DNA from: Chitinophagales bacterium
GTDB lineage: Bacteria > Bacteroidota > Bacteroidia > Chitinophagales > JADIYW01
NCBI GenBank assembly: GCA_017984135.1
Contig: JAGNZZ010000004.1
Location: 72,014-126,276 of the forward strand
Direction: 5' to 3'
DNA length: 54,263 nucleotides
Within the stretch, counting starts at the first letter, position 1. Each line of letters starts with the position of its first letter. The position numbers were made by a program, and so were the translations under genes. This document shows, one piece after another, positions 52,838-54,263 of this stretch. The notes beneath the pieces are model-generated. The model was not told where the DNA came from. It searched no databases and saw nothing but the letters and a program-made list of their open reading frames with translations.

Positions 52838-53719
52838 ATGTTAGCCTATCAGCAATTTTTACAGCATATTTTAGACAATGGCACGCGCAAAGAAGACCGA
52901 ACTGGAACCGGAACCATTAGTGTGTTTGGTTATCAAATGCGTTTTGATTTAAACAAAGGTTTTCCTTTAGTAACGACCAAAAAATTACATTTAAAATCGA
53001 TCATTCACGAATTGCTTTGGTTTATTGCCGGCGATACCAATATCCAATATTTATGCAAAAATGCTTGTAATATTTGGAATGATTGGCCGTATGCCAAATA
53101 TCAAAAAAGTGCCGATTACAAAGGCGAAACCATGAAAGAATTTGTGGCTAAAATTGTAGAAGATGAAAATTTTGCTCTACTATACGGCGAATTAGGTCCG
53201 GTTTATGGCTATCAATGGCGGCATTGGCCCGATGGAAAAGGCGGAAAAATTGACCAACTTTCCAACTTAATCCAACAAATCAAAAACAATCCGGATTCGC
53301 GCCGACATATAATTTCTGCTTGGAATGTTGCCGACATAGAACAAATGACCTTGCCGCCTTGTCATTCGCTTTTTCAGTTTTATGTGATTGATGGAAAATT
53401 GAGTTGCCAATTGTATCAACGTAGTGCCGATGCATTTCTCGGTGTTCCTTTCAATATTGCTTCGTATGCTTTATTTACGATGATGGTTGCTCAAGTATGC
53501 AATCTAAAATTGGGCGATTTTGTGCATACTTTCGGCGATGCTCATATTTATAGCAATCATATAGAGCAAGTGAAATTGCAGTTAACGCGCGAGACGTTTC
53601 CATTGCCACAAATGAAAATAAATACAAGCATAAATTCGATCTTTGATTTTAAAATAGACGATTTTGAATTAATCAATTATCAAAGTCATCCACATATAAA
53701 AGGCGAAGTGGCCGTGTAG
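52838..53719 (+). CDS. thyA: Thymidylate synthase
   Basis: Methylates dUMP to dTMP using 5,10-methylene-THF. The 293 residues contain [64 protein letters not shown], the nucleophile Cys in [32 protein letters not shown] and [14 protein letters not shown]. It is ~30 residues longer than the 264 of E. coli; the extra residues form an insertion between WNDWPYAKY and FALLYGELG in the small domain, as in other long ThyA forms. A -7-like box ends 4 bp before the ATG. Downstream lies a REP-like array. Confidence 0.97.
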
Positions 53720-53784
53720 TTGGTTGGCAATGGGCTGACTGACCACAGACCACTGACGATGATAAATATAACGTTCCCTCGCCC

Positions 53785-53808
53785 TTGGCAGGTGTTATCA
53801 CCTGCCAA
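53785..53808. repeat. REP hairpin 1
   Basis: Perfect 10-bp arms (TTGGCAGGTG and CACCTGCCAA) around TTAT. Confidence 0.85.
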
Positions 53809-53885
53809 CTACCAACTGCAAAGAATTGCAATACCATTTTTTTTATAAATTTGCGATATGGTTTATGGAGAAAATCAACTCGCCC

Positions 53886-53909
53886 TTGGCAGGTGTTATC
53901 ACCAGCCAA
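53886..53909. repeat. REP hairpin 2
   Basis: Same hairpin with one central mismatch: the right arm reads CACCAGCCAA. Confidence 0.8.
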
Positions 53910-53985
53910 CAACCAAATGCAAAGAATTGCAATAACATTTTTTTATAAATTTGCGATATGATTTATGAAGAAAATCACCTCGCCC

Positions 53986-54009
53986 TTGGCAGGTGTTATC
54001 ACCTGCCAA
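53986..54009. repeat. REP hairpin 3
   Basis: Perfect 10-bp arms, identical to hairpin 1. Confidence 0.85.
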
Positions 54010-54045
54010 CAACCAAATGCAAAGAATTGCAATAACATTTTTTTA

Positions 54046-54053
54046 TAAATTTG
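54046..54053 (+). promoter_or_regulatory. -7 box before the transposase start, repeated in each array unit
   Basis: TAAATTTG ending 4 bp before ATG 54058. Identical boxes lie at 53846-53853 and 53946-53953, each 4 bp before an ATG. A TTG lies 16 bp upstream in each unit, slightly closer than ideal. Confidence 0.5.
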
Positions 54054-54057
54054 TGAT

Positions 54058-54263
54058 ATGGTTTATGAAGAAAATCATCCGCAGTTTTTTACAGCAACAA
54101 TTTATGAATGGAATCATTTATGAATGGATGATAACATAAAAGATATTATTATAAACAGTTTAAGATTTCTGGTAAAAGAGGATAGGATTTCCCTATACGG
54201 TTTTGTTATTATGAGTAATCACCTTCATTTAATATGGAGAATTAAATTACCACATCTTATTAA
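54058..54263 (+). pseudogene. REP-associated tyrosine transposase (RAYT), disrupted and cut by the window end
   Basis: From ATG 54058 the frame reads MVYEENHPQFFTATIYEWNHL, stops at TGA 54121-54123, and continues in the same frame as MDDNIKDIIINSLRFLVKED... to YGFVIMSNHLHLIWR, which is the HUH (His-x-His) motif of IS200/RAYT-type single-strand transposases (Y1_Tnp). The rest, with the catalytic Tyr, lies beyond the window. A 12-bp direct repeat (54101-54112 and 54117-54128) flanks the stop, suggesting a local duplication broke the gene. A shorter product starting at ATG 54124 is possible. Such enzymes act on REP hairpins like those directly upstream. Confidence 0.75.

Follow-up and report, generated by a model that had tools for sequence, protein, structure and literature searches.

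Tandem copies of a transposase 5' end in a Chitinophagales genome as possible footprints of a mobile REP-RAYT-REP element

We analyzed a 54,263-nucleotide stretch from the draft genome of a Chitinophagales bacterium (assembly GCA_017984135.1, contig JAGNZZ010000004.1, positions 72,014 to 126,276), which we refer to as the window. Near its end, at 53777-54077, lies a tandem array built from the 5' end of a transposase gene, including its repetitive extragenic palindromic (REP) sequence, its promoter box and its start codon; the gene itself, which follows the array, encodes a REP-associated tyrosine transposase (RAYT). Probably, a mobile REP-RAYT-REP element has inserted between thyA and folA, and the array forms its left end. 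The best reading of the extra units is that they are footprints of strand transfer at REP ends rather than a regulatory device. Other RAYT lineages have repeatedly acquired such fragments, from left ends as well as right ends, and the fixed boundary is always the terminus of the element. Together with long duplications that flank related elements, these arrays suggest that a RAYT, although regarded as tamed, continues to move its own gene.

The array and its units

The array consists of three units of 101, 100 and 100 bp on the plus strand (53777-53877, 53878-53977 and 53978-54077), and Tandem Repeats Finder delimits it at 53777-54077 with a period of 100, 3.0 copies, 94% matches and a score of 537. 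Starting from the left terminus, each unit contains the tag CCTCGCCC (ACTCGCCC in unit 2), a REP palindrome, a short leader, the box TAAATTTG, 4 bp, an ATG and seven codons of the transposase. The boxes occupy 53846-53853, 53946-53953 and 54046-54053, and the ATG codons begin at 53858, 53958 and 54058. A sequence-only reading of the window had described these three units, with box, 4-bp spacer, ATG and about seven transposase codons, and had traced them to the 5' end of the transposase gene itself, with its REP, promoter and start; both descriptions hold. Its outline of three tandem units also stands, except that the array begins at 53777, not at 53846, and that the third unit is the 5' end of the real gene. 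Across the 2.63-Mb draft genome, there are three exact matches to ATAAATTTGNNATATG, all of them within this array.

The three REP palindromes lie at 53785-53808, 53886-53909 (with one stem mismatch) and 53986-54009, and as single strands they form far more stable folds than shuffled sequences (z-scores of -7.0, -4.1 and -6.5, respectively). The GTAG tag 5' of the palindrome is present in unit 1, on the minus strand, and in the element's 3' REP, and it reads GTTG in the other two units. This tag is absent at many related loci, and the motif that is common there is an outward GGC. As a side observation, the outermost REP, which has kept the GTAG tag, may be the sole good substrate within 53785-54013. 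No Rfam matches were found in 53700-54263.

The units differ from one another by approximately 4-6%. Bases resembling those of relatives (ACTAC, CAATACCA) are retained only in unit 1, and the changes are common to units 2 and 3; thus, units 2 and 3 form a younger pair, to which unit 1 is the outgroup. The breakpoints are identical at both junctions: each extra unit runs from the left terminus, which lies 8 nt beyond the REP palindrome, to codon 7.

The transposase gene and its site between thyA and folA

The gene behind the array (54058-54263, plus strand) is interrupted by the contig end and continues on contig C39 through an exact 127-bp overlap, giving 171 codons in total. Its assignment as a RAYT is based on the conservation of the HUH motif NHLH and the single-tyrosine motif KLDYIHNNP in the RAYT alignment, on a profile match to the solved TnpA-REP structure 4er8 (E-value of 0.0013) and on the curated RAYT family NF047646. 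The nearest intact relative scores 84.9 bits against this family (the cut-off is 80), and seven out of seven aligned members match it; the broken copy in the window scores 74.6 bits, which is under the cut-off. This copy has an in-frame TGA at codon 22 (54121-54123), where six aligned relatives have no stop. It looks broken, and a restart at the ATG at 54124, directly after the TGA, is possible. The nearest relative, SJ124, a Chitinophagales metagenome-assembled genome, has an intact transposase (78% identical) and carries the unit once: REP, TTTTTTATAAATTTGCAAC, ATGGTTTATGAAGAAAATCA.

Contig C34 ends with the window, whose last 127 bases are identical to the start of the reversed contig C39, a k-mer overlap. 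After the two contigs are joined, the order is thyA, array, RAYT, 3' REP and folA. The REPs flank the RAYT gene on both sides in inverted orientation, and the genome contains several further REP copies. In 11 of 11 relatives examined, the site between thyA and folA is empty, and the two genes are 20-130 bp apart. A perfect 34-bp direct repeat adjoins both ends of the element, with its left copy at 53743-53776 (plus strand) and its right copy on C39, just past the 3' REP. The sequence of this repeat is unrecognizable in the thyA-folA relatives, and no single-copy empty target was identified there. Contig C52 ends in another, near-identical copy of the element's 3' end, including its REP.

End-fragment arrays at related loci

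Out of at least 464 confirmed relatives, 80 related Bacteroidota RAYT loci were retrieved; the loci with flanks long enough for analysis also numbered 80, counting the window's own locus and the family loci. The start-codon region is duplicated upstream at seven of the 80 loci: the window's own, L142, L113, L167, L122 (Mucilaginibacter X4EP1), L144 and L121. The duplication scores of these seven range from 38 to 120; the next locus scores 30 and mismatched controls score no more than 28. Other open reading frames in the same DNA show such a duplication in 3 of 216 cases (Fisher p of 0.005 for the comparison with RAYTs). On the RAYT tree, the seven loci require seven changes. In six out of six tight 5' arrays, the junction is on the outer side of the next REP palindrome, at a distance of 6-8 nt (L167 has a half-palindrome there), and the internal ends vary from +15 to +278. 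The probability that junctions of all six tight arrays would fall within a 3-nt window by chance is approximately 1e-10.

Mirror-image 3' arrays, in which C-terminal codons and the 3' REP are repeated without a promoter, were detected at approximately 11 of the 80 loci. Their junction is a few nucleotides outside the REP in most cases, and their internal start is 11-263 bp before the stop codon. The second RAYT copy of Mucilaginibacter X4EP1 has two adjacent 3' units with different internal starts and the same REP-side end. Among the three proposals of the sequence-only reading, the best was a mark of transposition that always copies the 5' end; the transposition mark is retained here, whereas "always" fails on the promoter-free 3' arrays.

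Flanking direct repeats and a nested insertion

Direct repeats flanking the element were searched for with REPs masked and with one repeat copy required on each side. They were found at 17 of the 80 loci and in none of 960 mismatched pairs. Placebo windows elsewhere in the same loci reach this looser threshold in 5 of 274 cases; therefore, one or two of the weak cases may be due to chance. At a stricter threshold (score of at least 40), 13 of the 80 loci and none of the 274 placebo windows remain. The repeats range from 16 to 219 bp, the longest being 219, 170, 165, 132, 128 and 104 bp, and most of the clear ones end at REP tags, adjoining the REP ends. At L060, the last codons and the stop of dtd are duplicated. 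At L142, a complete element sits within a further copy of the gene that it carries, and 19 bp are duplicated there.

A separate observation comes from L144, where an old RAYT copy contains a perfect 128-bp tandem duplication, approximately 430-690 bp upstream of the RAYT start, with its two copies contiguous. An element that inserted here and was later excised precisely could have left this duplication behind.

Proposed mechanism

The REPs at the two ends of the element are inverted and share a hairpin-GGC motif that points outward. Judging from the termini, the RAYT would cleave just 3' of the REP hairpin and, because the REPs are inverted, the cuts at the left and right ends would fall on opposite strands, each releasing a 3' end of the element. 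Joining of both ends to staggered target positions would give an insertion with a long target duplication. Joining of only one end to an internal point x on the sister strand would give a tandem copy that extends from the terminus to x: a 5' array if the left terminus is joined and a 3' array if it is the right one. Full self-insertion followed by homologous collapse, a close alternative, would have the same outcome. The third unit in the window probably came from unequal exchange, as the two junctions share their breakpoints and unit 2 is the sister of unit 3. The promoter and the start codon would be copied only because they adjoin the left REP. Thus, a single step would account for 5' arrays, 3' arrays and long target duplications, although we infer every chemical step from sequence.

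In its general form, the proposal is that Bacteroidota RAYT elements are genuine transposons, with inverted REP ends processed on opposite strands, variable target duplications of approximately 16-220 bp and end-fragment arrays made by self-transfer of a single end, a combination described for no Y1 HUH element in the searchable literature. We consider the case for this general form to be evenly balanced.

Several observations weigh against the strand-transfer reading of the arrays. L121 has no tight tandem, and L138 and L150 are looser 3' cases. By-eye inspection revealed no apparent consensus at internal endpoints or targets. The element in the window spans a contig break and is joined through the exact 127-bp overlap. 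Since its transposase is now broken, the array must have been made earlier or by another copy. Finally, in Mucilaginibacter lappiensis, the second repeat copy at L116 is missing from the orthologous element L119. The empty-site comparison for L116 is ambiguous: relatives hold the flank once, and the L119 element is also without the second copy, so the L116 duplication may postdate the insertion or may have been lost in L119. Flanking repeats, then, need not all date from insertion.

Plain tandem duplication as the main alternative

The main rival explanation is that the arrays are plain tandem duplications, caused by replication slippage or microhomology at the hairpin and followed by unequal crossing-over, with no role for the transposase. 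REP hairpins are able to stall polymerase, and in the window the coding sequence just past the breakpoint (TCCGCAG) resembles the REP tag (CTCGCCC). Tandem arrays of REPs alone in other RAYT leaders point the same way, as does a pair of tandem REPs with a 38-bp unit in the window's own genome (L033 4260-4340, contig C68), which no RAYT start codon adjoins. However, the other tight arrays have no microhomology, and yet their junction is always at the element terminus. Microhomology as a general cause was rejected, because it is present at the window junction alone. Slippage also leaves the flanking direct repeats and the nested insertion at L142 unexplained. On balance, we regard this explanation as unlikely, although it fares better than the other alternatives.

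Promoters, short frames and solitary REPs

A second alternative is that selection keeps the array as a regulatory device, through stacked leaderless transcripts, a promoter decoy or short open reading frames that damp the transposase. The box in each unit matches the flavobacterial sigma-A -7 box, TAnnTTTG, which is located at -12 to -5 (PMC9723704; see also PMC7366714); from this position, +1 is predicted to fall exactly on the A of each ATG, at 53858, 53958 and 54058. A relaxed -7-like box is found 3-5 bp before the start in 22 of the 80 related RAYTs, and its density near the RAYT start is approximately 15 times that further upstream. Leaderless transcription of the RAYT family is therefore likely from sequence, and leaderless transcripts from all three array units are plausible. 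In Bacteroides thetaiotaomicron, transposase mRNAs are among the rare mRNAs with a 5' untranslated region shorter than 10 nt (PMC7366714), which speaks for a regulatory role, as do the three intact -7 boxes and the box-ATG spacing conserved in the family.

On the other hand, 3' arrays without a promoter are at least equally common, the gene behind the array in the window is broken, and the second RAYT copy of Mucilaginibacter X4EP1 has a single 5' unit. The two 25-codon frames that the sequence-only reading had noticed do exist (53858-53935 and 53958-54035, plus strand), opening at the first and second duplicated ATG, and neither carries a coding signal. The short frames of the arrays (25, 25, 30, 26, 25 and 13 codons) have no common sequence and no conserved peptide. 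The sequence-only reading's suggestion of a titrating decoy is not supported, given the broken gene and the unconserved short frames; with the promoter-free 3' arrays added, decoy or stacked-transcript function was rejected as the cause of the array. We consider maintenance as a regulatory device very improbable.

The sequence-only reading had also raised the possibility that solitary REPs carry the promoter-ATG segment and had named its lack there, together with a lack of transcription from the boxes, as evidence against its proposals. Solitary REPs were found to lack it. The exact promoter-ATG string is absent away from the array in the window's genome, despite several other REPs, and in the six genomes with start-region duplications, matches away from RAYT loci span the REP only. 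The exception is L171 302-720 (G014:C7), an internally deleted element resembling a miniature inverted-repeat transposable element, which consists of REP, promoter, ATG, 127 coding bases and an inverted REP. Copying of the promoter-ATG segment into solitary REPs was accordingly rejected.

An assembly artefact has next to no chance of explaining the array: the draft genome is fragmented and the contig ends at 54263, 186 bp past the array, but units that differ by approximately 4-6% are not collapsed or looped copies, and other genomes have comparable arrays in the interior of long contigs.

Relation to known systems

One of the known systems closest to the element is RAYT/TnpA-REP subclass 2.6 (group 5, REPtrons), with which it shares the HUH single-tyrosine transposase (NHLH, YIHNNP), REP-like flanking hairpins with copies elsewhere and an occurrence mostly in Bacteroidetes, where the hairpins of this subclass were described as atypical (PMC6006769). 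This subclass is marked by NH[LIV]H, W[Q], YIH[QN]NP and an insertion between alphaC and beta4. The histidine and tyrosine motifs fit; the residue after W is K here, whereas most relatives have Q. TnpA-REP genes have been published as domesticated, usually single-copy genes without evidence of mobility (PMC8266576, PMC8049555). This property does not fit here, and it is not a defining sequence feature of RAYTs: in contrast to published RAYTs, we see long flanking repeats, a site that is empty in relatives, a nested insertion and arrays of the element's own end fragments. The YIxNNP motif of subclass 2.4 (group 4) also fits the RAYT in the window. That subclass is known for REPs inserted inside tnpA genes (PMC6006769), whereas here REP, promoter and N-terminal codons are repeated outside the gene. 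Elements of the IS200/IS605 family similarly have a Y1 HUH transposase and subterminal hairpins, but they are described as lacking inverted ends or large target duplications (PMC2817692), whereas the elements studied here end in inverted REPs and have repeats of 16-219 bp at their flanks. Tandem clusters of REPs, REPINs and BIME-2 (bacterial interspersed mosaic elements) are known and also contain tandem REPs with some flanking sequence (PMC3116915, PMC3733652). Whereas those clusters repeat REPs or REPINs together with flanking DNA, the array unit includes the promoter, start and codons of the transposase. The units of the array run head to tail, whereas a REPIN is an inverted REP pair. Among the papers that could be searched, none describes arrays made of fragments of transposase ends, or long repeats at the flanks of such elements.

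These footprints bear on the spread of REPs and on the mobility of RAYTs. Any genome can be surveyed for the number of its end-fragment arrays and long flanking duplications, and they point to a concrete chemistry, namely cleavage 3' of the hairpin on opposite strands.

Three minor observations concern the surroundings of these elements. At the window's own locus, the element parts thyA from folA (52838-54263 and C39/L032), and its promoters face folA. Between the element and folA, directly upstream of the latter, there are short direct repeats, CTGTCGTCAGTGGA (L032, C39). At L172 1-330 (G016:C2:315000-315330), a tRNA-like 3' fragment is present in tandem copies beside a RAYT element.
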